A program made the translations under genes and the position numbers. Positions 1 to 28,826 of a stretch of DNA of 64,000 nt are shown in pieces. Positions within the stretch are counted from its first letter, which is position 1. Every line of letters starts with the position of its first letter. The notes below the pieces were generated by a model. It was not told the origin of the DNA. It worked only from the letters and a program-made list of their open reading frames with translations, and did no database searches. Source of the stretch: Tyzzerella sp. An114 (lineage in GTDB: Bacteria; Bacillota; Clostridia; Lachnospirales; Anaerotignaceae); NCBI RefSeq assembly GCF_002161055.1, contig NZ_NFLT01000005.1, forward strand, positions 1 through 64,000, in the 5' to 3' direction.

Positions 1-112
1 GATGATGCGTTCAGGGGACACACCCGTTCCCATTCCGAACACGACGGTTAAGACCTGAACGGCTGATGATACTTGGTGGGAAGCCGCCTGGGAAAGTAAG
101 TGGTCGCCGGGA
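1..112 (+). rRNA. rrf: 5S ribosomal RNA (5' end cut by window)
   Basis: The conserved 5S core is readable (CCCGTTCCCATTCCGAACAC, then GGTTAAGACC, then ACTTGGTGGGAAGCCGCCTG and a terminal GGTCGCCGGG). Only a few 5' nucleotides seem to lie outside the window. It is followed 8 nt later by a tRNA array, so this is the distal end of an rRNA operon. The exact 3' end is estimated from the family. Confidence 0.95.
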
Positions 113-119
113 TTAATAA

Positions 120-194
120 CGGGGTGTGGCTCAGCTTGGCTAGAGCGCCTGATTTGGGATCAGGAGGTCGCAGGTTCGAATCCTGTCACCCCGA
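120..194 (+). tRNA. tRNA-Pro(TGG)
   Basis: Seven-base-pair acceptor stem CGGGGTG/CACCCCG with discriminator A; T arm GGTTCGAATCC; anticodon TGG in the loop of stem CTGAT/ATCAG. No CCA is encoded. A second, identical copy lies at 811-885. Confidence 0.97.
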
Positions 195-226
195 CTTCTT
201 AAAAGTTATACAAGCTTTTAACTTAT

Positions 227-301
<75 letters not shown>

Positions 302-312
302 CTTTACTTTAT

Positions 313-385
313 GGGTCATTAGCTCAGTTGGTAGAGCACTGGACTTTTAATCCAGGTGTCCCGGGTTCGAGCCCCGGATGACTCA
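313..385 (+). tRNA. tRNA-Lys(TTT)
   Basis: Acceptor stem GGGTCAT/ATGACTC with discriminator A; anticodon TTT within GGACTTTTAATCC; T arm GGGTTCGAGCCCC. Confidence 0.97.
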
Positions 386-400
386 CTTTTAACTTAATAT

Positions 401-484
401 GCAGTCGTGGCGGAATTGGCATACGCGCTAGACTAAGGATCTAGTCCGGGTTTCTGGGTAGGGGTTCAAGTCCCCTCGACTGCA
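401..484 (+). tRNA. tRNA-Leu(AAG)
   Basis: 84-nt class II tRNA with a long variable arm; acceptor stem GCAGTCG/CGACTGC. The anticodon stem CTAGA/TCTAG encloses the loop CTAAGGA, so the anticodon is AAG, not the usual TAG. A34 outside tRNA-Arg is uncommon in bacteria. An identical copy lies at 917-1000. Confidence 0.95.
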
Positions 485-500
485 TCAAGTTATATTATAT

Positions 501-572
501 GCGCGAATGGCTCAGTGGTAGAGCATCGCCTTGCCAAGGCGAGGGCCGCGGGTTCGAATCCCGTTTCGCGCT
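501..572 (+). tRNA. tRNA-Gly(GCC)
   Basis: Acceptor stem GCGCGAA/TTCGCGC with discriminator T; anticodon GCC inside stem CGCCT/AGGCG; T arm GGGTTCGAATCCC. Confidence 0.97.
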
Positions 573-611
573 TTTTACTTACCTTTAAAATCCTGTAAAT
601 TTACCATATAT

Positions 612-683
612 TGGGCTGTCGCCAAGCGGTAAGGCACAGGACTTTGACTCCTGCATTCGTTGGTTCGAATCCAATCAGCCCAG
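612..683 (+). tRNA. tRNA-Gln(TTG)
   Basis: Acceptor stem TGGGCTG/CAGCCCA with discriminator G; anticodon TTG in GGACTTTGACTCC. It is followed by a second Gln isoacceptor (CTG) 34 nt downstream. Confidence 0.96.
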
Positions 684-716
684 GTTTCTTTTAAAAAACG
701 AAGGTTAAGTTAATAA

Positions 717-788
717 TGGGGTATCGCCAAGTGGTAAGGCAACGGATTCTGATTCCGTCATCCGCAGGTTCGAATCCTGCTACCCTAG
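717..788 (+). tRNA. tRNA-Gln(CTG)
   Basis: Acceptor stem TGGGGTA/TACCCTA with discriminator G (one G-T pair); anticodon CTG in GGATTCTGATTCC. It differs from the copy at 1050-1121 by one base in the D loop and one in the T loop. Confidence 0.96.
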
Positions 789-810
789 TTTTTAATTATT
801 AAGTTGCTGC

Positions 811-885
811 CGGGGTGTGGCTCAGCTTGGCTAGAGCGCCTGATTTGGGATCAGGAGGTCGCAGGTTCGAATCCTGTCACCCCGA
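811..885 (+). tRNA. tRNA-Pro(TGG), second copy
   Basis: Identical to the copy at 120-194. It opens the second, shorter block of the array (Pro, Leu, Gln). Confidence 0.97.
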
Positions 886-916
886 TTTCAATTTTTTAAT
901 TCATTTAATTTAATAT

Positions 917-1000
917 GCAGTCGTGGCGGAATTGGCATACGCGCTAGACTAAGGATCTAGTCCGGGTTTCTGGGTAGGGGTTCAAGTCCCCTCGACTGCA
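917..1000 (+). tRNA. tRNA-Leu(AAG), second copy
   Basis: Identical to the copy at 401-484, with anticodon loop CTAAGGA and thus anticodon AAG. Confidence 0.95.
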
Positions 1001-1049
1001 CTTTACAAACTATATTTTTTATAAATGTAGTTTTTTTATTTATATGCGA

Positions 1050-1121
1050 TGGGGTATCGCCAAGCGGTAAGGCAACGGATTCTGATTCCGTCATCCGCAG
1101 GTTCAAATCCTGCTACCCTAG
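1050..1121 (+). tRNA. tRNA-Gln(CTG), second copy
   Basis: Same acceptor and anticodon arms as 717-788, with GCGG in the D loop and TTCAAAT in the T arm in place of GTGG and TTCGAAT. It is the last gene of the array and is followed directly by a terminator. Confidence 0.96.
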
Positions 1122-1127
1122 TTTTGT

Positions 1128-1160
1128 AACCACAAGGTATATTTGCCTTGTGGTTTTTTT
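1128..1160 (+). terminator. Intrinsic terminator of the rRNA/tRNA operon
   Basis: Perfect 10-bp stem AACCACAAGG/CCTTGTGGTT followed by an unbroken run of T residues, 6 nt after the last tRNA. Confidence 0.93.
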
Positions 1161-1203
1161 ATTACATAAATTTATTATATGAAACTTGAGAGGAAGTGAT
1201 TTT

Positions 1204-1710
1204 TTGGTAATAACAGATTTAACTATGGATGAAATGTATTTTATTAATAAAAATATTGATTATGTTGATTTGAATTCTAAAAATATAAATAATTGTAAAG
1301 GGTGTTTTTGTTGTTGGGTAAAAACTCCGGGAAAATGTATAATTCGTGATGATGCTGTATCTATATACACTAAAATAGCAAAAACTGATTTTATTGTTTA
1401 TGTTTCAAGGGTGAAATTTGGCTGTTATGATACTCCTGTCAAAAATCTTATGGAAAGGTCTTTACCAGTTCAAAAGGCTTTTATAAGACTTTATAAAGGA
1501 GAAACTCATCACTTCCAGAGAGATGTTGTTCCTAAAAAAGCTTTTATAATAGCTTATGGTGCAAAATCTGATAGTGAAAAAAGAGTTTTTGAAAAACTTG
1601 TTGATAGAAATTCAAAAAATATGAGTTTTTATGATTATGAGATAATATTTACAGATAGAGAAAATGTTGAAAATGAAGTTAAAAAGGTGGTGGAAAAATG
1701 GAAAAAATGA
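1204..1710 (+). CDS. Flavodoxin-fold NAD(P)H-dependent oxidoreductase-like protein
   Basis: About 169 residues related to the NADPH-dependent FMN reductase/flavodoxin family. The region around NNCKGCFCCWVKTPGKC matches the CxGCxxCW...GxC segment of iron-sulfur flavoprotein-like reductases, although the N-terminal phosphate-binding loop is poorly conserved. I prefer the TTG at 1204 because a clear GAGAGGAAGTG ribosome-binding site lies 7-8 nt upstream; an in-frame TTG at 1186 would put that site inside the gene. It overlaps the next gene by 13 nt, so the two flavodoxin-like proteins are probably co-made and may work together. The substrate is unknown. Confidence 0.75.
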   Translation: MVITDLTMDEMYFINKNIDYVDLNSKNINNCKGCFCCWVKTPGKCIIRDDAVSIYTKIAKTDFIVYVSRVKFGCYDTPVKNLMERSLPVQKAFIRLYKGETHHFQRDVVPKKAFIIAYGAKSDSEKRVFEKLVDRNSKNMSFYDYEIIFTDRENVENEVKKVVEKWKK

Positions 1711-2306
1711 TTATTGTAAATGGAAGCCCTCGTGCTGCTGTTTCAAATTCAAAAAAATTAATAGAAATATTTAAAAATATTAACTCTAAAAAATTTAATA
1801 TTACTGAGTTTGTTTGTCGTAGGGATAATGATAAAATATGTGCTGAATTTGAAAATACAGATAATGTTTTGTTTGTTTTTCCTCTTTATACAGATGGTGT
1901 TCCTTCTATACTTCTTCAGCTTTTTAAAGATATTGAAAAAGCTGAAATTAAAAATAAACCTAAAATTAATGTTATTATAAATTGTGGTTTTATGGAGCCT
2001 TTTCAAAATGATACAGCTGTTGAAATTGTAAAAATATTTTCAGAACAGTGTGGTTTTGAATTTGGAAGTGTACTTTGTATAGGTAGTGGTGAGGCTATAA
2101 TGGATACACCTTTTAAATTATTTGTTAATATGAAAATAAAAAGTTTTTCAAAGGCTATTGTTAAAAATAGTAAAAAAACTTTTAAAGTGACAATGCCAAT
2201 AACAAAATCAATGTTTTTGAAGGCTTCTACTTCCTATTGGCTTAAAAAGGGAGAAAAATTTGGTGTCAGTAGAGAAAAAATGGATACTATGGATATAGAA
2301 AAATAA
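1698..2306 (+). CDS. Flavodoxin-like NAD(P)H-dependent FMN reductase family protein
   Basis: 202 residues. The N-terminus MEKMIIVNGSPR matches the FMN-phosphate binding loop (hNGSPR) of NADPH-dependent FMN reductases, and FVFPLYTDGVPSILLQ fits the second flavin-contact loop. The last 50 residues form a basic extension of unknown role. The start ATG follows AAGGTGGTGG and overlaps the previous gene. The pair probably acts as cytoplasmic flavin-dependent reductases; nothing nearby fixes the substrate. Confidence 0.78.
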   Translation: MEKMIIVNGSPRAAVSNSKKLIEIFKNINSKKFNITEFVCRRDNDKICAEFENTDNVLFVFPLYTDGVPSILLQLFKDIEKAEIKNKPKINVIINCGFMEPFQNDTAVEIVKIFSEQCGFEFGSVLCIGSGEAIMDTPFKLFVNMKIKSFSKAIVKNSKKTFKVTMPITKSMFLKASTSYWLKKGEKFGVSREKMDTMDIEK

Positions 2307-2406
2307 TTGTAAAAATTATAAAAATACCTTATTTAATCCTTTGTACTATTAAAAAAAAGTATTTTATGTTAAAATATTTTAAGTATACAGGAAGGAATGA
2401 GATTTT

Positions 2407-2838
2407 GTGGAAAAATGTATGTCTTCTCGAATTTGCCATATATTTAATTTTAATCTTAAAGATGTTTGGAATGTTATCACTGATATTAAATCTTGTGATT
2501 GGCGTAGTGATACTTTGCATATTCAGATTACAGAGGGTGGCAAAGGATTTATTGAATACTATAAAAATGGAAATGTAAATATTTTTAAAATACTTGAAAA
2601 AAATAAATACAGATATTATAAACTTAAAATTATAAATAAAAATTTTAAGGGAATATGGGAAGGTAGTTTTTATCCTCTTAAAAATAACCGCACTCAAATT
2701 GTGTTTTCCAAAAAAATATATGTTGAAAAACCTATAAAAAGATTTTTGGCAAAACATTTATGGAATATAAGAAATCTTCAAATTCAATATATAAAAGATG
2801 TTGAGAGAAGACTTATGGAGATGAAATGCCATGAATAA
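2407..2838 (+). CDS. SRPBCC (START/Bet v 1-like) family protein
   Basis: 143 residues with the layout of small ligand-binding SRPBCC proteins: a strand/helix start FNFNLKDVWNVITDI, a short central sheet and a C-terminal amphipathic helix (LAKHLWNIRNLQIQYIKDVE). The GTG start follows AGGAAGGAATGAG. It overlaps the chromate-transporter gene by 8 nt, so it belongs to that transcript. The family binds hydrophobic ligands or acts as a cyclase; no specific activity can be assigned here. Confidence 0.65.
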   Translation: MEKCMSSRICHIFNFNLKDVWNVITDIKSCDWRSDTLHIQITEGGKGFIEYYKNGNVNIFKILEKNKYRYYKLKIINKNFKGIWEGSFYPLKNNRTQIVFSKKIYVEKPIKRFLAKHLWNIRNLQIQYIKDVERRLMEMKCHE

Positions 2839-3385
2839 ACCTAAGGTATGTATTCAACTTTTGATTTCATTTGCTAAAGTTGGAACATTTGTTGTAGGTG
2901 GAGGCTATTCAATGGTTCCTGTAATGAGATATGAGATTGTTGAAAAAAGAAAATGGATAAATGATGATGAAATTCTTGACTGTATGGCTCTTGGACAATC
3001 TCTCCCCGGTGTAATAACTATAAATACATCTGTTTTTATAGGTTATCGTGTATGTGGAATTATGGGAGTTTTGGCGGCGTCTTTAGGTATTGTTTTTCCT
3101 GCATTTCTTATTATAACTTTATTTGCCGCAGCCTTTGAGAAACTTGAAAGCATGGTTGTTGTACAAAAGGCTATGGCTGGAGTTAGAGCTTCTGTATTTG
3201 CTCTTATATTGGCTTCTGTACTTAAAATGTTTAATTCTTCTGTAAAAAATATTTTTCAGATGATTATATTTTTAGGTGTTTTTGGATTTATGATGTTTTC
3301 TGATATATCTCCTGTTTTTGCTATTATAGTTTCAGGATTGTTAGGCTATATCTATTTTCTGAAAAGGGGTGAAAATAGTGATTGA
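2831..3385 (+). CDS. Chromate transporter (CHR), N-terminal-type half
   Basis: 184 residues, membrane protein of the short-chain CHR family. The family signature FxKVGxxxxGGGYxMxP is seen as FAKVGTFVVGGGYSMVP, and LGQSLPGVITINTS matches the second conserved loop. Short-chain CHR proteins work as hetero-pairs, and the second member follows with an 8-nt overlap. They are predicted anion antiporters in the cytoplasmic membrane (chromate export in characterised members). The physiological substrate in an anaerobe may differ. Confidence 0.88.
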   Translation: MNKPKVCIQLLISFAKVGTFVVGGGYSMVPVMRYEIVEKRKWINDDEILDCMALGQSLPGVITINTSVFIGYRVCGIMGVLAASLGIVFPAFLIITLFAAAFEKLESMVVVQKAMAGVRASVFALILASVLKMFNSSVKNIFQMIIFLGVFGFMMFSDISPVFAIIVSGLLGYIYFLKRGENSD

Positions 3386-3941
3386 GTCCCTTTTTATTAT
3401 GTTGATTTTTATGAAAATAGGTTTTTTCTGTTATGGTGGTGGCTATGCCATGATGTCTTTTTTGCAGGATTATGTTGTAAAATATAATTGGATGTCAATA
3501 AAAGATTTTACAGAAATAGTTGCTATATCACAGATTACTCCCGGTCCTATTGCTGTAAATTTAGCAACATTTGTTGGATTTAAAAATACAGGAGTTTTAG
3601 GTGCAATACTTGCAACATTTGGAATATATTTTCCGTGTGTTGTAATGAGTGTTATTGTTTCAAAGTTTTTTAGAAAATTTTCTGAAACTAAAGCTGTTAA
3701 AAATATAATGAATGGTATAAAGCCGGCTTCTGCTGGTCTTATAATGGCTTCAGCTTTTTCAATAGGTATTCAGGAAATATTTTCACAGACAGAATTTAAT
3801 GGTATATATAACTATATTAAATCCTTTAAGCCTTTATCTTTTATTATATTTTTAGTGTCTTTTATATTACTTTCAAAAACAAAAATAAATCCTATTTTTA
3901 TAGTAATTGCTTCGGCTTTTGTTGGGATTTTTATATTTTAA
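3378..3941 (+). CDS. Chromate transporter (CHR), C-terminal-type half
   Basis: About 187 residues, the partner of the preceding short-chain CHR protein. FMKIGFFCYGGGYAMM and ISQITPGPIAVNLATFVGF repeat the family signatures. I place the start at the GTG at 3378, 6 nt after AAGGGGTG. A GTG at 3369 is possible but overlaps the ribosome-binding site. The resulting 8-nt overlap with the previous gene equals the overlap at the start of that gene, which suggests translational coupling of the three genes. Confidence 0.87.
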   Translation: MIESLFIMLIFMKIGFFCYGGGYAMMSFLQDYVVKYNWMSIKDFTEIVAISQITPGPIAVNLATFVGFKNTGVLGAILATFGIYFPCVVMSVIVSKFFRKFSETKAVKNIMNGIKPASAGLIMASAFSIGIQEIFSQTEFNGIYNYIKSFKPLSFIIFLVSFILLSKTKINPIFIVIASAFVGIFIF

Positions 3942-18444: not shown

Positions 18445-21400
18445 ATGAAGTTTAAAAGAACGTTAGCGTCTACATTAGCGGCTGCTATGGTTTGTTCGTC
18501 TGTTCCTACAAATGCTTTTGCATCAGATACAGCCAGCGGTGTTCTTGACGATAACTATGAACTTTATCCTAATGTGCAGGAAATCACTTATGATGACAGT
18601 GTTGTGACACTTCCTGAAATAGTTAATGCGGTTTTTGAAGAAGGAATTGATGAATATACTGTTGATAGAGCAGAGTATGCTCTTGGTGCTGCTGGAATAA
18701 GCATGAATACAGTTGATGCTGCAAATCTTGAAAGTAAAAATGTTGAAGAAGCAGTTACTTATGAGGAACCTGTAAAAGAAGAAACAAAAGAAGAAATTGT
18801 AACAGAGGAAGTTTCAGAGGAAACAACAGAAGAAGTTGAAAATACTGATGCAGTAATTGAAGCTCCTGCAAATGAAGATACAGTTACAGAAGCATCTTTA
18901 GAAAAAGATACTGAAGAAGCAGTTGTATCTGAAGATAAAACAGAAGTAACAGAAGAAGTTGACTCAGGATTTACAGTTGAGCCAGAAGGAGAAATAACAG
19001 AAGAAGTAGACCCAGGATTTACAGTAGACCCAGAAGGAGAAACAACAGAAGAAATTGACCCAGGATTTACAGTAGACCCAGAAGGAGAAGCGACAGAAGA
19101 AATTGACCCAGGATTTACAGTAGACCCAGAAGGAGAAGTGACAGAAGAAATTGACCCAGGTTTTGGAGTTAACCCAGATGATGTTGTAGACCCAGGATTT
19201 ACAATAGACCAAGAACTTGAATCTACTCCAGAAAAAATGATTTTAAACGAATTAAAAGCTGGAGAAGATGTACAGTTATTAGTTGGTATATATGGAAATG
19301 AAGATAACACAGTTGATGACTGGTTCAATGAAAATGTAAAAGATGCAGATTACACAGTTCTTGAAAAAACAGATTCATATATGCTTGTTATAAAAGGCAA
19401 CCAGATAGCAGTTCTTGGACGTGATACAGACGCTGCTTTCTATGGTCTTACAACACTTAAACAGATAATGACACAGATAAATTCATCTACAAGAGAAGTT
19501 CGAGCTCTTTCAATTAATGACTGGGCAGACATTGCATCTCGTGGATTTATCGAAGGTTACTATGGTGAGCCTTGGAGTGTTGAAGACAGAGCAGAGCTTA
19601 TGAGATTTGGTGGAGAAATAAAACTTAATTCATATTTCTATGCACCAAAAGATGACCCTAAACACAATTCTAGATGGCGTGAATTATATACACAAGATGA
19701 ACTTGAAAGATTAGTAAAACCTCTTGCAGAGGCTGGAAATGCTTCAAAATGTCAGTTTGTTTTTGCTCTTCATCCATTTATGTATAATCCTATAACAAAT
19801 TCAAATTATGATGAAACTATTAAAATATTAAAAGCAAAATTTGAACAGGTTATGGGTGCTGGTGTTCGTCAGATAGCTGTACTTGCAGACGATGCTGGAA
19901 ATCAGGGTTCAGATTTATATATTAAACTTATGACAGAACTTGTTGATTGGGTTTCATCAGAAGAAATGCAGTCAAAATATCCTGGACTTAAGACAACTAT
20001 TCCTTTCTGTCCTGTTGAGTATATGTACAATGGTGCTTCTTGGATGTCAAATCTTCCAGAGGAAGTTCCTGTTGTTATGACAGGTGGAAAGATTTGGGGT
20101 GAAGTTTCTGATAATTTTACAAATGTATTCTATAATAATGTAAAACGTGGACCATATATGTGGATTAACTGGCCATGTACAGACAACTCAAAACGTCACC
20201 TTATAATGGGTGGATTTAAAGATTTCCTTCACCCAGGAGTAAACCCAGAAAAAATTCAGGGTATAGTGCTTAACCCAATGCAGCAGTCAGAGCCTTCAAA
20301 GGTTGCTATATTCGGTAATGCTTGTTATTCATGGAATATTTGGGAGGATGGAGAAACAGCTGACCAGGCTTGGTATGACTCATTCAAATATGTAGACCAT
20401 GAAACATATAAAGAAACACCAGAGTCAAAGGCACTTCGTGAAATTTCAAAACACATGATTAACCAAAACATGGATAGTCGTGTAAGAGTTCTTCAGGAGT
20501 CTGTTGACCTTAAACCAAAACTTAATGAATTTAAAGAAAAACTTGCAAATGAAACTCTTACAAAAGAAGACATTGAGTCAATGCGTAAAGAGTTTACTAA
20601 ACTTCAGGAGGCAGCTGCTATCTATAAAGAAAGTGGAAATGAACGTCTTGCAGGTCAGATGGTATACTGGCTTGATACATGGCAGAATGTAACAGAAGCT
20701 GCTGATATATTCTTAAATGCACTTGAAGAATATTATATAAATGACAATGCAGGAGTAGTTCCAGAATATTATGTTGCTGGACAGGCACAGTTGGAAGAAG
20801 CTGAAACACATGGTTTTAGTTATATAGACCATACTGAATATGCTGAAGTTGGTGTACAGCATATAATGCCGTTCTTAAGAACAATACGTGATAAAATTGC
20901 TATTATAGCTGAACTTACTGTTGACCCATCAAAAGTTATTGCAACACCAATAACAAATATTGAGGCAACAACAAAAGGAACAATTTCAAATATAATTGAT
21001 GGTAATGAAAAATCAGAAGTATACTTTGAAAAAGAAATAAAAACTGGCGATTATATAGGTATTGTTTATAACCGTCCAATAGCTATTGACAGTGTTCTTT
21101 TTGCAACAGGTCGTTCAGGAAACATGGCTGACACATTTAGCACATGTAAACTTGAGTACACAGAAGATGGTGTTGAATGGAAAGATGTTCCTGATGTAAC
21201 TTTCTCAGGAAGTAAAACTGAAATGAAAGCTGAAAACCTTGGTCTTAAAGCTAAAGGTATCAGAATGACAGCCACAGCAAACAATGCAAAATGGCTTGGT
21301 GTAAGAGAAATATATATAAATAATTTACCAGTAGAAGCACCAGTTGATGAAGTAAAACCTCTCAGTGGAACTGTTTACAGAACAAGTGGATATACTGTTT

Positions 21401-24400
21401 ACAGTGGTGCAGAGAAAAACCTTACAGACGGTGATGACAGTACAATAGTTTGGTACAATCCTTCAACTTCAAAGAAAGATACTTGTCTTGTTGGTGATTA
21501 TTTAGGTCTTGACCTTGGTTCTGTTAAGAAAGTAGGAAAAGTACATATCGTTGTTGGTGACGGAAGTGGAGATAAATGGGAAACATATCGTCTTGAATAT
21601 TCTGTTAACGGCGAAGAATGGACTAAAGTTAAGGATATAACAGGAAAAGCAACTGGAAAAGATACAACAGATGTTGACCTTGAAGGTGTTGAGGCTAGAT
21701 ATGTTCGTATTGTTAACACTAAAGAACGTAATGTATGGGTTAAATTCTCAGAATTTGATGTATATGAATATGTAGAAGATAAAACAGAAGTTATTCATTC
21801 AGAAGCTTGGAAAATACATCAAGGTTCCCTTGATAATTTATTAGATGGAAAAGACAATACATTTGTATGGTTTGACCCAGACGGAACACCAAACAATCCA
21901 GAACATCCAGATGATAGTCTTGTAGGCGATTATATAGGACTTAATCTTGGAGAAGTTAAACAGATTGGAAACGTTCGTTTCGTAATTGGAAATGGTAATG
22001 GAGATAAATGGAAAAAATATCACCTTGAATATTCTGTTGATGGTGAAACTTATACACCTGTAAAGAGTTTTGAGGGAAGCCAGTCTGGTTCAGATGTTAT
22101 TGAAGTTAACCTTGGCGGAATTGAAGCACAGTATGTGCGTATGGTAAATGATGAGATAGTTGATGCTTGGATTAAATTCTCAGAAATAACAGTTAATGAG
22201 TTTAATCCTGAAACTGACACAGCAAAACATGCTATATCAAATAATGCTGATGTATTAAAAGGTGTTTGTGGAGTTGTTTCAGAAAATGAAGCTACAATAT
22301 CAAAAGCATCAGAAATAACACTTAATCCGGGAGACTATGTTGGTCTTGAACTTGAGCGTATAAGCGGAATTGGTTCAATAACTGTTGATAAGACAGGTGG
22401 AGAAACACTTACACTTAAAGCAGGTGCAAACCTTGAAGAAATGAAAGCTTATACAGAAGGCAAAGTAAATGCTCGTTATGTATATATCCAGAATGATACA
22501 GATGAAGTTGTAACATTCCACCTTAATGAACTTAAAGTTACAGTTGAGGAAGCAACAGGAATAGTATTTGATAGCATAAGCTCAAATCTTCCTCTTGCAC
22601 CACAGTGGAATCAGGATGACGCTATAAAAACTGGTACAACAGGAAACTGGTTTGACGGAAATGTAAATACAGGTGCAGTGTTTAGCCGTTATCAGGTAAA
22701 AGATGGTTGGATAATGTATGACTTAGGTCAGACACGTGAAATAAGAAAGATTGAAGCTCTTATTCCAGACACTAACCAGAACTATATTCGTGATGGTTTA
22801 ATTGAAGTTGCAGCTGACAAAGATGGAGAATGGACAACAGTTGTAACAATGACTGACAATAAAGAGGCTACTGAATGGGATTCAAGTACAGCTGGTTCAA
22901 TCGGTTGGGGTCAGGCAAGTAGTAATTATCCAAACTTTAGAAGTTTTTCAGGAGAACTTGAATCACCAGTAAATGCACGTTATCTCCGTGTAAAACTTAC
23001 ATCAAATTATTCACATAGATTTATTGGTCTCAATGAAATAATAATAAATGATGGTGAATATGTACCTGTTAATGGAAATCCTACTTTTGTAGTTGACCCA
23101 GCTGAGGTTTCTGCTGATTTTGTTCCAGAAAATATTATTGACGGAAGCATAACAACAGCATTTAAACCTAATATGACAGGTCGTGAAACAGGAAGCCTTG
23201 TTTACAATCTTTCAGATGTAACTCATATTGACCAGATTAATGTACTTCAGAGTAGCTCAGCAATAAGTAATGCAAAAGTATATGTGCGTGGTACACGTTC
23301 AAACCCTGCTAATATTGCTACTCTTTCAGAAGAAAATGACAACTGGGTACAAGTAGGAACTCTCACAGAGCCTCTTACAACTGTTTATACATATATGTTT
23401 GACAGTATCTATTCAATTAAACTTGAATGGGAAAATGTTACACCAGTATTCTATGAAATTGTTACAGTTGCAAATGGTGCTCTTGAAATAGACACAACAC
23501 AGCTTAGCAAACTTTACGCTTCAACTGGAGAAATTAAAGATGAAAGTTACTATGATGAAGAACTTCTTAAAGCATATAAAGATGCTAGAGCTCATGCAGA
23601 AGGAATTCTTAATGGTACTATTGAACCAAAAACACAGTCAGAGGTTTTAGAGGCTTATGACAAACTTAATGCTGCATATAAAGAACTTATAAACAGCATT
23701 ACTGAACTTGATATTGCTAAAGCAGAATTGCAGAAAGTAATTGATAGCTATGATGAGACACTTTATACAAAATCATCATGGACTGCATTTATTGAAAGTG
23801 AAGCTTATACAAAAGCAATTGAAGCTCTTAAAGGCGAAGATATAGAAGCTGTTAAACAGGCTGCTATTGATGTAGTTGAAGAAGCAAAAGTTACTCTTAA
23901 ACTTAGCGGAGATACAAAAGCTCTTGAAGCTATGGTTAAAGAGGCTGAAAAATTAAATAAAGATGATTATACATCAGATACATATGCTAAACTTGAAGAG
24001 ACATTAAAAGCAACAAAAGACGCTCTTGCAAAAGGCGACTTATCAGAAGAAGACGTTGCAAAATTACTTGAAAATCTTTCAAATGCAATTGAGGGACTTG
24101 AAAAAGCTCCTACTGAGGAAAGCAGTTCTTCATCAGGTGGTGGACACTACACTGTAAAACCAACAAGACCTGGTGAAACAATTAAAGATGATGATGTTCC
24201 TCTTGTTGAAAACCCAGATGACAAAGAAGATGCTCTCTTTGCAGATGTTACAGAAAATAGCTGGTTCTATGAAAGTCTTGAATTTGCTGTTGAAAATAAC
24301 CTTATATCAGGTATCAATGGAAAATTTGAGCCAAACTTAAATACAACAAGAGCAATGCTTGTTGCTGTATTACATAGACTGGATAACAATGCTGAAGCAA

Positions 24401-24777
24401 CAAAAGATTTAGAGTTTAAAGATGTAACAACATCAGATTGGTTCTACAATGATATAGCTTGGGCTGTTGAAAGTGGTATCGTATCAGGAATGAGCGAAGA
24501 TACATTTGCTCCAAATGATAACCTTACAAGAGAACAGCTTGCAGTTATGATTTATCAGTATGCTAAATATAAAGAAATGAATACAGAAGTTACAGAAGAC
24601 CATGTTGCAAAATATGATGATGTATCATCAGTTTCAGAATGGGCTAAAGAAGGAATGAACTTCTGTATTGAAAATGGTATTTTCTCAGGAAGAACAGATA
24701 AAGAACTTGCTCCTAAAGCGTTTGCTACAAGAGCAGAACTTGTTTCTGTAATTGACAGATTTGTAAATGAAAAATAA
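18445..24777 (+). CDS. SLH-anchored GH84 beta-N-acetylglucosaminidase (NagH/NagJ-like) with F5/8C domains
   Basis: 2110 residues. Signal peptide (cleavage likely after AFA, about residue 26); N-terminal GH20b-like domain in two pieces (about 36-95 and 275-340) separated by an acidic, repeat-rich insertion; GH84 barrel (about 360-660) with RGFIEGYYGEPW, YAPKDDP and the catalytic Asp pair Asp482-Asp483 (VLADDAG). Then a helical domain, four or five F5/8C (CBM32-like) modules (about 832-962, 977-1109, 1115-1253, 1373-1537, 1540-1670), three FIVAR-like helical repeats (about 1680-1890), a Ser/Gly linker and three SLH motifs (about 1930-2110). It resembles clostridial hyaluronidase/O-GlcNAcase toxins but is held on the cell wall by SLH rather than released. 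Likely role: trimming GlcNAc from host or mucin glycans. Confidence 0.94.
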   Translation: MKFKRTLASTLAAAMVCSSVPTNAFASDTASGVLDDNYELYPNVQEITYDDSVVTLPEIVNAVFEEGIDEYTVDRAEYALGAAGISMNTVDAANLESKNVEEAVTYEEPVKEETKEEIVTEEVSEETTEEVENTDAVIEAPANEDTVTEASLEKDTEEAVVSEDKTEVTEEVDSGFTVEPEGEITEEVDPGFTVDPEGETTEEIDPGFTVDPEGEATEEIDPGFTVDPEGEVTEEIDPGFGVNPDDVVDPGFTIDQELESTPEKMILNELKAGEDVQLLVGIYGNEDNTVDDWFNENVKDADYTVLEKTDSYMLVIKGNQIAVLGRDTDAAFYGLTTLKQIMTQINSSTREVRALSINDWADIASRGFIEGYYGEPWSVEDRAELMRFGGEIKLNSYFYAPKDDPKHNSRWRELYTQDELERLVKPLAEAGNASKCQFVFALHPFMYNPITNSNYDETIKILKAKFEQVMGAGVRQIAVLADDAGNQGSDLYIKLMTELVDWVSSEEMQSKYPGLKTTIPFCPVEYMYNGASWMSNLPEEVPVVMTGGKIWGEVSDNFTNVFYNNVKRGPYMWINWPCTDNSKRHLIMGGFKDFLHPGVNPEKIQGIVLNPMQQSEPSKVAIFGNACYSWNIWEDGETADQAWYDSFKYVDHETYKETPESKALREISKHMINQNMDSRVRVLQESVDLKPKLNEFKEKLANETLTKEDIESMRKEFTKLQEAAAIYKESGNERLAGQMVYWLDTWQNVTEAADIFLNALEEYYINDNAGVVPEYYVAGQAQLEEAETHGFSYIDHTEYAEVGVQHIMPFLRTIRDKIAIIAELTVDPSKVIATPITNIEATTKGTISNIIDGNEKSEVYFEKEIKTGDYIGIVYNRPIAIDSVLFATGRSGNMADTFSTCKLEYTEDGVEWKDVPDVTFSGSKTEMKAENLGLKAKGIRMTATANNAKWLGVREIYINNLPVEAPVDEVKPLSGTVYRTSGYTVYSGAEKNLTDGDDSTIVWYNPSTSKKDTCLVGDYLGLDLGSVKKVGKVHIVVGDGSGDKWETYRLEYSVNGEEWTKVKDITGKATGKDTTDVDLEGVEARYVRIVNTKERNVWVKFSEFDVYEYVEDKTEVIHSEAWKIHQGSLDNLLDGKDNTFVWFDPDGTPNNPEHPDDSLVGDYIGLNLGEVKQIGNVRFVIGNGNGDKWKKYHLEYSVDGETYTPVKSFEGSQSGSDVIEVNLGGIEAQYVRMVNDEIVDAWIKFSEITVNEFNPETDTAKHAISNNADVLKGVCGVVSENEATISKASEITLNPGDYVGLELERISGIGSITVDKTGGETLTLKAGANLEEMKAYTEGKVNARYVYIQNDTDEVVTFHLNELKVTVEEATGIVFDSISSNLPLAPQWNQDDAIKTGTTGNWFDGNVNTGAVFSRYQVKDGWIMYDLGQTREIRKIEALIPDTNQNYIRDGLIEVAADKDGEWTTVVTMTDNKEATEWDSSTAGSIGWGQASSNYPNFRSFSGELESPVNARYLRVKLTSNYSHRFIGLNEIIINDGEYVPVNGNPTFVVDPAEVSADFVPENIIDGSITTAFKPNMTGRETGSLVYNLSDVTHIDQINVLQSSSAISNAKVYVRGTRSNPANIATLSEENDNWVQVGTLTEPLTTVYTYMFDSIYSIKLEWENVTPVFYEIVTVANGALEIDTTQLSKLYASTGEIKDESYYDEELLKAYKDARAHAEGILNGTIEPKTQSEVLEAYDKLNAAYKELINSITELDIAKAELQKVIDSYDETLYTKSSWTAFIESEAYTKAIEALKGEDIEAVKQAAIDVVEEAKVTLKLSGDTKALEAMVKEAEKLNKDDYTSDTYAKLEETLKATKDALAKGDLSEEDVAKLLENLSNAIEGLEKAPTEESSSSSGGGHYTVKPTRPGETIKDDDVPLVENPDDKEDALFADVTENSWFYESLEFAVENNLISGINGKFEPNLNTTRAMLVAVLHRLDNNAEATKDLEFKDVTTSDWFYNDIAWAVESGIVSGMSEDTFAPNDNLTREQLAVMIYQYAKYKEMNTEVTEDHVAKYDDVSSVSEWAKEGMNFCIENGIFSGRTDKELAPKAFATRAELVSVIDRFVNEK
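18943..19211 (+). repeat. 48-nt tandem repeat inside the GH84 gene
   Basis: Five tandem 48-nt units (18943, 18991, 19039, 19087 and 19135) plus a partial unit encode the 16-residue motif E-x-TEE-[VI]-DPGFTVDPEG. The units are nearly identical at DNA level in the middle and degenerate at the ends. They form the last part of an acidic insertion within the GH84 N-terminal domain, and repeat number could vary between strains. Confidence 0.9.
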
Positions 24778-25618: not shown

Positions 25619-26560
25619 ATGCGATATATAAATGAAATAAGAGAAGGAGAAAATGTAGTTGAGCATTTTTTATGTAAAAGCAAACAGACTTTAAAATCTC
25701 GTGCTGGTAAAAGCTATCTTTCATTAAAATTACAGGATAAAACAGGAACTGTTGATGCTAAAGTTTGGGAACTTAATAATGATATAAAAGCTTTTGAAGA
25801 AAATGAATTTATAAAAATTGATGGTACTGCAATAGTATATCAAAATGAAATACAGCTTAATGTAAAGAAAATAAGAAGAAGTCTTGAAGGCGAATATGAC
25901 CCTATGGACTATATTCCAAGTACAGAAAAAAATATTGATGATATGACAAAAGAACTTATTGGTTATATCAATACAATAAAAAATACTTTTATTAAAAAAC
26001 TTCTTGAAGATATTTTTATAAATAATACTACAATAAGTAAAAAAATTAAATACCACTCAGCAGCAAAAAATATACACCATGGATATATGGGAGGACTTGT
26101 TGAGCATACTCTTTCTGTAACACAGATTTGTGATTTTATGGCACCAAGATATAAATATGTAGATAGAGACATACTTATTGCTGCCGCAATGCTCCACGAT
26201 ATAGGTAAAATATATGAGCTTTCAGATTTTCCAGAAAATGATTACACTGATGATGGACAGCTTTTAGGACATATTATAATAGGAACAGAGCTTATAACAG
26301 AGACAGCTAGAAATATAAATGGTTTTCCTAAAAAACTTGAGAGTATTTTAAAACATTGTATACTCTCTCATCATGGTGAATACGAATATGGTTCTCCACA
26401 GCTTCCAAAAACAATAGAAGCCTTTATTCTTCACTGTGCCGACAATATGGACGCAAAAGTAAAAGTTATTGAGGAGATGATTGATACTGACAGTACAGCG
26501 GGAAGTTGGGTTGGTTATCAGAAAATGCTCCAGAGAAATATTAGAAAGTCTGATTATTAA
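25619..26560 (+). CDS. YhaM-like 3'-5' exonuclease (OB fold plus HD domain)
   Basis: 313 residues. The N-terminal OB-fold (about 1-90; KSYLSLKLQDKTGTVDAKVW) is followed by an HD phosphohydrolase domain with His193-Asp194 (AMLHDIGKIYEL), further histidines in LSHHGEYEYGSP, and Asp in HCADNMDAK. This is the domain order of YhaM/CbfA exoribonucleases of Firmicutes, which degrade RNA or DNA from the 3' end. It heads a run of overlapping genes: the next ORF starts on its stop codon (TAATG). Confidence 0.92.
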   Translation: MRYINEIREGENVVEHFLCKSKQTLKSRAGKSYLSLKLQDKTGTVDAKVWELNNDIKAFEENEFIKIDGTAIVYQNEIQLNVKKIRRSLEGEYDPMDYIPSTEKNIDDMTKELIGYINTIKNTFIKKLLEDIFINNTTISKKIKYHSAAKNIHHGYMGGLVEHTLSVTQICDFMAPRYKYVDRDILIAAAMLHDIGKIYELSDFPENDYTDDGQLLGHIIIGTELITETARNINGFPKKLESILKHCILSHHGEYEYGSPQLPKTIEAFILHCADNMDAKVKVIEEMIDTDSTAGSWVGYQKMLQRNIRKSDY

Positions 26561-26871
26561 TGTCTGAAAAACTTAAAAATTCAAGAACAACTATTTCGGC
26601 ATCAGAGATTAACAGATTTACCTATTGTAATTATCAGTGGTATTATGAAAGGCTTTATGGAAGTAAACAACTTAGAGAGCTTAAAGGGGAAAGAAATAAA
26701 AAAATCGGAGTAGAAAATACCTATTCAAATTTTAAAAGGGGCACCGACTTTCACAATGAAGGTTACAGAAAAATGATGGCAAGAAGAAAATTAATAAGAG
26801 GGTGTATTATTGCGATAGTGATAATAATATTATGTACATTTATATATTTTAAGGTGAGACAAGGTGTTTAA
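26560..26871 (+). CDS. Membrane-anchored N-terminal half of a Cas4/RecB-like nuclease
   Basis: 103 residues. ISASEINRFTYCNYQWYYER matches the start of Cas4/Dna2-type PD-(D/E)XK nucleases, where a single N-terminal Cys (here Cys23) serves the iron-sulfur cluster. FKRGTDFHNE supplies the motif I His (His65). One membrane span (about 79-98) ends the protein. The catalytic Asp and E-x-K residues are absent but occur in the next ORF, which overlaps by 8 nt. I infer that the two products together make one nuclease. It is not part of a CRISPR locus. Confidence 0.7.
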   Translation: MSEKLKNSRTTISASEINRFTYCNYQWYYERLYGSKQLRELKGERNKKIGVENTYSNFKRGTDFHNEGYRKMMARRKLIRGCIIAIVIIILCTFIYFKVRQGV

Positions 26872-27448
26872 AGAATTAAATTTTAATATTGATATAGTTT
26901 TTGGTATATGTATTGCTGTAATAGTGATACTTTTGTATGTAAGAATTAAAAATGGCGGATATATAAAGAAAAAATCATCTTTAAGTATGCCGGGATATGT
27001 TCTTGTATACACAGACCAAAGTGCAGATAAAAAAGAAAAAAATGTTGAATACAGTAAAATATTATATTCTGAAAAATATGATATCCAGGGAAAGCCTGAT
27101 TATATATTTAAAAAGGCTATTGGAAGAAGTCTTGTTCCTCTTGAAGTTAAAAGTGGAACAATAGGAAGTGATGAGCGACCTCATAAAGGTGACTTGTTAC
27201 AGCTTGCATCGTATTTTATTATAATTGAAGATGTTTATGGTGTTAAACCAAGATACGGAAAACTTGTTTATAGAGATTATATGTTTAAAGTTAGAAATAC
27301 AAGACGTATAAGAAAAGAAGTTATTAAGACAGTAAATTCTATGCGTAATATGATGAAGACTGGAAAAGGTGAGGCGAATGCTTCCTTTGTAAATTGTCGT
27401 TATTGTCTTTGTAGAGGAACAGTTTGTAAATATTGTAAAAAGGAATGA
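26864..27448 (+). CDS. Membrane-anchored C-terminal half of a Cas4/RecB-like nuclease
   Basis: 194 residues. One N-terminal membrane span (about 9-28), then the PD-(D/E)XK core: Asp79 (QGKPDYIF), Glu94-Val-Lys96 (PLEVKSG), and the QLASY helix motif (DLLQLASYFIII). The C-terminus carries five cysteines (178, 181, 183, 188 and 191), the usual place of the Cas4/AddB iron-sulfur cluster; the fourth cluster ligand would come from Cys23 of the preceding protein. The GTG start follows AAGGTGA. Predicted topology puts both halves in the cytoplasm at the membrane. Confidence 0.75.
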   Translation: MFKELNFNIDIVFGICIAVIVILLYVRIKNGGYIKKKSSLSMPGYVLVYTDQSADKKEKNVEYSKILYSEKYDIQGKPDYIFKKAIGRSLVPLEVKSGTIGSDERPHKGDLLQLASYFIIIEDVYGVKPRYGKLVYRDYMFKVRNTRRIRKEVIKTVNSMRNMMKTGKGEANASFVNCRYCLCRGTVCKYCKKE

Positions 27449-27452
27449 TTTT

Positions 27453-28826
27453 ATGAAATTTGAACCTCCTGTAATTAAAAATGAAATATATGAAATGCAT
27501 ATAGATGATTTAGGCACAGAAGGTCAGGGAATAGGAAAGATTGATGGATTTACTGTGTTTGTTGAAAATGCTTTGCCATCAGAAATTATAAAAGTGCTTA
27601 TTGTTAAGGTTAAAAAAAGTTTTGCCTATGGAAAACTTATTGAAATAATAAAACCTTCAAAATATAGAGTTGAACCTTTTTGTCCTAAGGCTAAAAGATG
27701 TGGAGGCTGTCAGCTTCAACATATGAGTTATGAAGGACAGCTTGAATTTAAGAGAAAAAAGGTTTTAGATTGTATTGAAAGAATAGGCGGTTTTGAAAAT
27801 ATATATGTTAATAAAACCATAGGAATGGAAAATCCTATACGTTATAGGAATAAAGCTCAGTTTCCTGTTGGTATGGGCAAAAATGGTATAGAAGCAGGAT
27901 TTTATGCTAAAAGAAGTCATAATATAATTGAAACAGAAAAATGTTTTTTACAACATGAAATAAATGATAGTATTGTTGCTATTGTAAAAGAATTTATGAC
28001 TGAAAATAATATAAAACCTTATGATGAAAAAAGTCATACAGGTGTTGTAAGGCATATACTCACAAGAATAGGTTTTGAAACTGGCGAAATTATGGTTTGT
28101 ATTGTGGGAAATTCTAAAAAAATGCCTTGTGCTGATAAACTTGTTGAAAAACTGAAAGATTTTGAGGGTATGACAAGTATTGTTTTTAATGAAAACAGAG
28201 AAAAGACTAATGTTATATTAGGTAAAAAAGTTACTACATTGTATGGAAAAGATTATATTGTTGATTACATTGATAATATAAAATTTGAAATATCTCCTCT
28301 TTCATTCTTTCAGGTTAATCCAGTACAAACAAGAAAACTTTATGAAAAAGCTCTTGAAGTTGCTGACATTAAAGGAACTGAAAATGTACTTGATATATAC
28401 TGTGGTATAGGTACAATTTCACTTTTCTTTGCAAGAAAAGCTAAAAGTGTTTTGGGGGTTGAGATAGTTCCGGAGGCAATTCTTGACGCAAAAAGAAATG
28501 CCAAAATAAATGGATTTGAAAATACACGTTTTGAGGTTGGAAAAGCTGAAGAAATTATTCCTAAACTTTATAAAGAAGAAGGAATATATGCAGATGTTGT
28601 TGTAGTAGACCCTCCAAGAAAAGGCTGTGATGAAGCTGTTCTTGAAACTATATCAAATATAAAACCTAAAAAAGTTGTTTATGTATCCTGTGATCCAGCA
28701 ACTATGGCAAGAGATTTAAAATATCTGTGTGATAATGGTTATAGTATTAATGAGGTTTGGCCTGTTGACCAGTTCTGTCACACTACCCATGTGGAAACAG
28801 TTGTTTCGCTTTCGTATATTTTATAA
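27453..28826 (+). CDS. rlmD: 23S rRNA (uracil-5-)-methyltransferase RlmD/RumA family
   Basis: 457 residues. N-terminal TRAM domain (about 1-65), a 4Fe-4S cluster with Cys77, Cys83, Cys86 and Cys164 (C-x5-C-x2-C-x77-C), and a SAM-binding domain (VLDIYCGIGTISLF) with VVVDPPRKGC and catalytic Cys413 in VSCDPATMARDL. The enzyme forms m5U in RNA; whether the target is U1939 or U747 of 23S rRNA, as in different Firmicutes paralogues, cannot be told. It starts 4 nt after the split nuclease. Confidence 0.94.
   Translation: MKFEPPVIKNEIYEMHIDDLGTEGQGIGKIDGFTVFVENALPSEIIKVLIVKVKKSFAYGKLIEIIKPSKYRVEPFCPKAKRCGGCQLQHMSYEGQLEFKRKKVLDCIERIGGFENIYVNKTIGMENPIRYRNKAQFPVGMGKNGIEAGFYAKRSHNIIETEKCFLQHEINDSIVAIVKEFMTENNIKPYDEKSHTGVVRHILTRIGFETGEIMVCIVGNSKKMPCADKLVEKLKDFEGMTSIVFNENREKTNVILGKKVTTLYGKDYIVDYIDNIKFEISPLSFFQVNPVQTRKLYEKALEVADIKGTENVLDIYCGIGTISLFFARKAKSVLGVEIVPEAILDAKRNAKINGFENTRFEVGKAEEIIPKLYKEEGIYADVVVVDPPRKGCDEAVLETISNIKPKKVVYVSCDPATMARDLKYLCDNGYSINEVWPVDQFCHTTHVETVVSLSYIL

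Follow-up and report, generated by a model that had tools for sequence, protein, structure and literature searches.

Two adjacent genes of Tyzzerella sp. An114 as putative halves of a membrane-anchored Cas4-type nuclease

Cas4 nucleases cut DNA and have been described by a common set of features, namely RecB motifs II and III, a QhXXY motif, a conserved histidine that provides an additional metal ligand, and an N-terminal cysteine that, with three at the C-terminus, makes up the four ligands of an iron-sulfur (Fe-S) cluster (PMC4176176, PMC3466216). Solo-Cas4 genes occur in most Thermoanaerobacterales and many Chloroflexi with functions called uncharacterised, Cas4 relatives are found in defence contexts, and Clostridiales have an unfused UvrD - Cas4-like operon, with Cas4-like PDDEXK_1 (pfam12705) proteins (PMC5704561). 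Our search of the open-access literature, with subscription papers and preprints outside its scope, gave no description of a split or membrane Cas4, and a term search of the main text of PMC5704561 gave no ‘split’ and one unrelated ‘membrane’. Here we describe two neighbouring genes, ORF1 and ORF2, in the first 64,000 nucleotides of contig NZ_NFLT01000005.1 of Tyzzerella sp. An114 (assembly GCF_002161055.1; Bacillota, Clostridia, Lachnospirales, Anaerotignaceae), a stretch hereafter called the window. Their products, one subunit each, very probably form a single heterodimeric nuclease of Cas4/RecB type that is anchored in the membrane, and whose complex, Fe-S cluster and activity we infer from sequence comparison. 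ORF2, which annotation assigns to the CRISPR proteins, would then probably be half of a separate, unstudied enzyme.

Nuclease motifs distributed over two genes

As far as profiles and conserved residues tell, ORF1 and ORF2 together hold the parts of a single Cas4-type nuclease, each part once, with the cut lying between RecB motifs I (His) and II (Asp). Residues 11-65 of ORF1 match positions 1-42 of the Pfam profile PDDEXK_1 at E 0.004, below Pfam's own cut-off, and all 37 ORF1 members match the start of this profile at E <= 0.1; ORF1 has no curated NCBIfam match. The ORF2 of the window has no Pfam match of its own; at E <= 0.1, 28/36 ORF2s of its family match PDDEXK_1 and 26/36, the window's not among them, match the weaker PF01930. 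ORF2 does exceed the cut-off of the NCBIfam cas4 model TIGR00372 (71 bits against 65), with residues 54-189 corresponding to model positions 45-179 of 180. Since this match begins at position 45, the absent start of the model is the part supplied by ORF1. The same model is matched by all 34 rows of an alignment (A5; E <= 0.001), and two members scanned singly, L027 (60.4) and the natural fusion L109 (63.5), fall under its cut-off. Neither ORF has a helicase match in a Pfam scan. Sequence searches of the PDB gave weak matches to one Cas4 chain (8d3l), with a best E of 0.0015 for an alignment profile (A2) and 0.005 for L109. When the two soluble halves are combined in one profile, the Cys motif of ORF1 aligns with the N-terminal Cys of the Cas4 from the genome's own CRISPR locus, and ORF2 with the rest of that protein, at low bit scores (6.0 and 7.7).

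Residue conservation was counted over 96 sequences of each half, with locus L135 left out of the ORF1 count and both halves of L109 and of genome G259 included. Invariant in 96/96 are Cys23, Gly61 and His65 of ORF1, and Gly76, Pro78, Asp79, Glu94, Lys96, Gln113, Tyr117, Cys178, Cys181 and Cys188 of ORF2 (Table 1). These residues are the set described for Cas4, comprising RecB motifs I-III, QhXXY and four Cys, with the His in ORF1 and the other motifs in ORF2; the presumed role of His65 is assigned by analogy with His62 of SSO0001 (PMC4176176). The initial annotation of the window, made from its letters and open reading frames, had correctly placed both ORFs, their 8-nt overlap (26864-26871), Cys23, His65, Asp79 and E94-x-K96. 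The five C-terminal Cys that it listed (178, 181, 183, 188 and 191) are all present, of which only 178, 181 and 188 are invariant, Cys183 being kept in 86/96 sequences and Cys191 in 10/96. Because these two vary, the conserved set consists of four cysteines (one plus three) and not of six.

It might be argued that ORF2 is an enzyme by itself and ORF1 an accessory membrane protein whose Cys and His are incidental, given that motifs II, III and QhXXY and three of the Cys all lie in ORF2, and that two archaeal Cas4s cut without a cluster (PMC4176176). We regard this as improbable, in view of the invariance of Cys23, Gly61 and His65 in ORF1, of the match of ORF1 to PDDEXK_1 1-42, of the natural fusion that joins the halves in Cas4 order, and of the inactivity of the H80A mutant of SSO1391 (PMC4176176), whose H80 is, judging from its spacing, the motif I His.

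Spread of the two-gene arrangement and its membrane spans

Of the 58 genomes searched in the family of the window, 36 have a match to ORF2 and 39 to ORF1, and ORF1 stands directly upstream of ORF2 at 36/36 loci, including four whose genome is a single contig. Beyond the ORF2 holders, ORF1 was matched in three genomes: in G052, where the copy lies at the end of a contig, and, weakly (E 0.001 and 0.008), in two others, at whose loci no ORF1 match was obtained at E 0.01. G052 may have the pair, truncated where its contig stops, and so may G011, which matched over 26 residues only and at a contig end. Eleven of the 22 pair-less family genomes were examined: nine have a match to the YhaM-like gene that precedes the pair in the window, the RlmD-like gene that follows the pair there comes directly after YhaM in 8/9, and neither half was matched at the nine loci. 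Such a junction devoid of either half implies that both genes are absent together, at one clean site.

Across the order, the ORF2 profile matched 89 of 392 genomes, 52 of them outside the family. Two of these 52 (L122, L123) have ordinary one-chain Cas4s and 50 belong to the group, with 48 adjacent pairs, one single chain (L109) and one genome with the halves on different contigs (G259); these are the best places per genome, second places in G279 (E 2e-5) and G294 (1e-4) being left out, as was that of G048 in the family search. The context resembles that of a solo-Cas4 and is mostly one syntenic place across the order. The class (391 genomes) added no new member, its two strong matches both belonging to the window's family and none of the eight weak ones fetched, out of nine, being split (G565 left out). 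In one of these weak class matches (L129), the start of Cas4 is preceded by a hydrophobic stretch. The phylum (398 genomes) yielded seven further strong matches in two families outside the class, all seven with two genes and spans, and all 41 weaker places proved to be one-chain Cas4s.

The pair is also found on plasmids. Those of Bacillus subtilis (three records found, two examined) encode an ORF1 of 81 aa and an ORF2 of 162 aa; in L172 (327-3648) the pair has a helicase gene (Helicase_C_2) upstream and an Hfq-like gene downstream, and the 64-kb plasmid also carries assembly genes of the Flp-pilus type. From Helicase_C_2 we take the helicase to be of the DinG/Rad3 type. In planctomycete plasmids (Singulisphaera, Paludisphaera) the two ORFs overlap by 4 nt and lie beside DNA methyltransferase genes, and in Planctomyces sp. 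SH-PL62 (L173) ORF2 is broken and the gene table holds no ORF1. In both plasmid groups ORF1 retains the conserved Cys, Gly and His and has a hydrophobic C-terminal stretch. In the plasmid records examined, ORF1 is labelled ‘hypothetical protein’, and ORF2 either ‘Dna2/Cas4 domain-containing’ or ‘PD-(D/E)XK nuclease family’. Phage records gave no match to the pair, and none of the 49 and 6 pattern matches in viral contigs was confirmed. Solo-Cas4 is marked by mostly vertical inheritance; the plasmid copies of the pair point to some transfer, and horizontal transfer, at least onto plasmids, is likely.

This distribution bears on whether an ordinary one-chain Cas4 has been broken here by a frameshift, an assembly fault or an error specific to the strain, a possibility that we consider practically nil and that the comparisons refute. 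In its favour, a fused form can evidently exist, as seen in L109, the sole single chain in the order set of 50. Yet this fusion is nested within the split group, and between its halves lies a hydrophobic stretch of 44 residues (77-120), a length that suffices for two spans. Its chain of 275 aa, with the halves in Cas4 order, aligns over residues 6-273 in one stretch with the Cas4 model PADLOC PDLC01447 (3-157 of 161) and matches PDDEXK_1 at positions 2-47, in support of the halves being parts of one nuclease. Two genes are found at 36/36 family loci, 48/50 order loci, the seven loci outside the class and in finished plasmids, and most members have a span on each side of the break. By contrast, among 51 one-chain control Cas4s (8 from the class, 41 from the phylum and 2 from the order), the N-terminal Cys motif and the core share one reading frame in 51/51, a His lies between motif and core in 48/51 (as the core was cut there), and a span lies between them in 0/51. 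Split and spans thus occur together. The initial annotation had already treated the split as real, with the proviso that one continuous ORF in close relatives, or ORF1 homologues occurring without ORF2, would speak against it. Neither was found, all 36 family ORF2 loci being split and 36/39 family ORF1s lying in ORF2 holders, the remainder consisting of the contig-end copy and the two weak matches. The suggested search for homologues as one chain or two gave, within the group, nearly always two, with one natural single chain with a double span, and the split recurs in the family, in the order, outside the class and on plasmids.

A tree of ORF2 cores (61 rows, 138 columns) separates 44 split rows plus the fusion from 16 one-chain Cas4s with a branch support of 96/88, and places L109 inside the split group. 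A single origin of the split is favoured, not proven, because long branches lead to the Cas4 of the genome itself and to the B. subtilis row. The two-gene arrangement itself is, by these comparisons, old and conserved.

Spans, defined as a mean hydropathy of at least 1.6 over 19 residues, were scored in 84 pairs for which we chose the start codons. A C-terminal span is present in 82/84 ORF1s and an N-terminal one in 72/84 ORF2s, and the highest hydropathy within the ORF2 cores is 1.34. The ORF2 of L008 counts as span-less owing to a start chosen too late, and L012, L013 and L014 (1.51-1.54) lie just under the threshold. Net charge is more positive on the N-side of the span in 77/82 ORF1s (3 ties, 2 against) and on the C-side in 72/72 ORF2s, in agreement with an earlier proposal that both halves are cytoplasmic. 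With the same choice of starts, ORF2 begins before ORF1 ends in 69/84 pairs, and at most loci the genes overlap or come close to doing so. In 17 close pairs dN/dS is 0.02-0.33 for both ORFs (one ORF1 value not computable), and both genes are under purifying selection. A reading of the pair as a decaying gene was also considered and rejected.

Neighbouring genes, CRISPR and possible role

The positions of the two genes, their key residues and their neighbours are given in Table 1.

Table 1. Features of the ORF1-ORF2 locus in the window
Feature	Position	Strand	Remarks
YhaM-like gene	25619-26560	+	HD and OB domains; upstream neighbour of ORF1
ORF1	26560..26871	+	ATG start, 103 aa; N-terminal half of Cas4-like nuclease (putative), C-terminal membrane span
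ORF1, Cys23 codon	26626..26628	+	Presumed N-terminal Fe-S ligand
ORF1, His65 codon	26752..26754	+	RecB motif I, presumed metal ligand
ORF1 span	26800-26850	+	~residues 81-97, by eye
Shine-Dalgarno-like AAGGTGAG	26851..26858	+	Within ORF1 3' end, 5 nt ahead of ORF2 GTG; by eye, not program-scored
ORF2	26864..27448	+	GTG start, 194 aa; N-terminal span, then catalytic core (putative), C-terminal Cys cluster
ORF2 span	26888-26941	+	~residues 9-26, by eye
ORF2, Asp79 codon	27098..27100	+	Motif II (GKPD)
ORF2, Glu94-x-Lys96	27143..27151	+	Motif III
ORF2, Gln113-xxx-Tyr117	27200..27214	+	QhXXY motif (name from PMC4176176)
ORF2, Cys178, Cys181, Cys188	27395..27427	+	Presumed C-terminal ligands of the Fe-S cluster; intervening Cys183 dispensable
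RlmD-like RNA methyltransferase gene	27453-28826	+	Downstream neighbour of ORF2

The neighbours proposed at the outset, a YhaM-like exonuclease and RlmD, are real and common across the order. Within the flanks fetched, YhaM lies upstream on the same strand at 36/36 family and 45/50 order loci, and RlmD is present at 34/36 and 39/50. This constancy could suggest that the pair works in RNA metabolism together with YhaM (of the 3'-5' exoribonuclease type) and RlmD, a reading to which we give a slim chance and which was rejected as a functional unit. Neither neighbour was matched in the flanks fetched for the seven outside-class loci, of which L141 begins at the end of a contig, or in four plasmid gene tables around intact pairs; in 8 genomes YhaM and RlmD adjoin with no pair between them, and described Cas4s cut DNA (PMC4176176, PMC3466216). 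In L150, a YhaM-like gene, identified by eye, lies ~6 kb from the pair, and three downstream neighbours tested outside the class are polysaccharide deacetylases. Neighbours vary by lineage and only the ORF1-ORF2 pair is constant; being unmatched at the outside-class loci, YhaM and RlmD are not part of the unit. Elsewhere in the window, positions 18445-24777 encode a 2110-aa GH84-type N-acetylglucosaminidase with F5/8 and S-layer domains, in whose gene region a 48-bp repeat occurs in 4.9 copies (18942-19178), and ten tRNA genes are clustered on the + strand at 120-1121, where the anticodons Pro-tgg, Leu-aag and Gln-ctg each occur twice.

As to the statement that there is no CRISPR array, none of 7 tandem-repeat rows of the window is array-like (no dedicated CRISPR finder was run); the genome has an ordinary CRISPR-Cas locus on another contig (C21; L125, ~1-3585) with cas7, cas4, cas1 and cas2 in a row, a layout that we take to be type I-C. 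Its Cas4 (L125:1489-2148) is a single chain of 219 aa encoded between cas7 and cas1 and matches Pfam Cas_Cas4 in one stretch, 8-198. One bacterium hence holds both a CRISPR Cas4 and a split Cas4-like pair. The presence of this locus, and the score of ORF2 above the cas4 cut-off, would be compatible with the pair being an adaptation factor for the host CRISPR system, a CAS-Cas4 encoded away from the array. We rejected this as highly improbable on three grounds: the CRISPR locus has its own one-chain Cas4; Cas1 shows no association with the pair in the family, occurring in 11/36 holders and 7/22 non-holders (G011 and G052 counted among the latter); and the pair lies between YhaM and RlmD, not beside cas1/cas2.

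For the heterodimeric nuclease that we favour, we propose that the halves would be made together from one mRNA by coupled translation and that each chain would insert by one span, such that the halves meet at the membrane and the two spans form a hairpin-like anchor. The folded halves would form a single RecB-like domain facing the cytoplasm, pinned together by one Fe-S cluster to which ORF1 would contribute one ligand and ORF2 three. The enzyme may carry out metal-dependent DNA cleavage, as Cas4 enzymes do, at the inner face of the membrane, most likely of single-stranded DNA or DNA ends, and its activity would be independent of CRISPR adaptation.

Our tentative guess at the role is the trimming or destruction of DNA at or crossing the membrane, be it in uptake, conjugation, phage entry or as the cell's own DNA debris; a role on DNA at the membrane would fit the anchor and the plasmid contexts. 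Rather less likely, in our opinion, is an anti-phage or anti-plasmid defence nuclease instead of a housekeeping one. The planctomycete plasmid copies beside DNA methyltransferase genes and the Bacillus copies behind the presumably DinG/Rad3-type helicase gene would suit defence, as would the defence contexts of Cas4 relatives (PMC5704561). Against it, most chromosomal copies of the order occupy a single syntenic site, flanked by YhaM and RlmD, and no match was found in phage records and none confirmed in the viral contigs scanned (defence neighbours were not systematically tested). In a bolder reading, about as likely as our guess at the role, the pair might represent an old, obligately two-chain lineage of membrane Fe-S nucleases, split once before it spread through Bacillota and planctomycete plasmids, and acting as a CRISPR-independent gatekeeper for membrane DNA; the Fe-S staple would lie between two polypeptides and the enzyme would be complete only when the halves meet.

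Several observations weigh against a two-anchor, cluster-bearing heterodimer as we picture it. Some concern individual loci: ORF1 is broken in frame in L135, one of the seven outside-class loci; the ORF1 of L084 (order; 2959-3195, - strand) has only 79 aa and no span, and may be truncated or frame-shifted; and in L086, whose locus is intact in other respects and whose genome is a single contig, 302 nt (2115-2416) separate the two genes. In G259 the halves lie on different contigs, ORF1 behind YhaM (L166:2471-2794) and ORF2 before RlmD (L101:2488-3072), which, unless it is an artefact of binning or assembly, would be a natural separation of the halves. In one family of the order (f19; L099, L100, L108, L111, L112, L114 and L117), ORF2 is without a span in 7/7, even over the whole open frames, and ORF1 keeps its own, which implies that two anchors are not always needed and that the anchor can be on one half only. 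An AlphaFold2 model of ORF2 alone, from a three-sequence alignment (window, L002, L003), was poor (mean pLDDT 51.6, pTM 0.44). As to the cluster, Cys mutants of Pcal_0546 and SSO1391 devoid of it still cut DNA, and therefore it need not be required; in SSO0001 cluster loss inactivated the enzyme (PMC4176176). Finally, the competence gene ComEC and the sporulation gene SpoIVA, present in 53/58 and 52/58 family genomes, give no hint on the role; being near universal, they are uninformative on a link to DNA uptake or sporulation.

An ORF2 that passes the cut-off for ‘CRISPR-associated protein Cas4’ next to an ORF1 that goes unmatched would, by this comparison, make up one enzyme. The pair would give solo-Cas4 a concrete cellular address, the membrane, and could serve as a natural system for testing Fe-S cluster assembly between two chains, with ready-made comparison points in the natural fusion L109, the f19 members with one span and G259 with its separated halves.

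Comparison with known systems

AddB is a large helicase-like subunit, and the pair differs from it in having no helicase match, in consisting of two short chains (103 and 194 aa) and in its membrane spans. What it shares with AddB and other iron-staple nucleases is a PD-(D/E)XK core that a cluster closes through a single N-terminal Cys and three at the C-terminus (PMC3466216, PMC4176176). With the Cas4-like PDDEXK_1 proteins, among them that of the UvrD - Cas4-like operon of Clostridiales, the pair shares the profile matches of both halves reported above; the gene tables read hold no UvrD gene, and in two B. subtilis plasmids a helicase gene precedes the pair. The CRISPR Cas4 of the same genome belongs to the same superfamily, and its N-terminal Cys and C-terminal Cys set align with those of the pair, at low scores; it differs in being one chain within a cas operon. 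Also close is Cas4 (DUF83, COG1468, TIGR00372), solo-Cas4 in particular, with ORF2 over the cas4 cut-off and the genes away from CRISPR loci. The pair departs from them in being two chains, in carrying spans on each half in most members, and in forming a tree group separate from the 16 one-chain Cas4s. Cas4 is one continuous soluble chain, whereas the pair is divided, and the single fused exception has spans as well.

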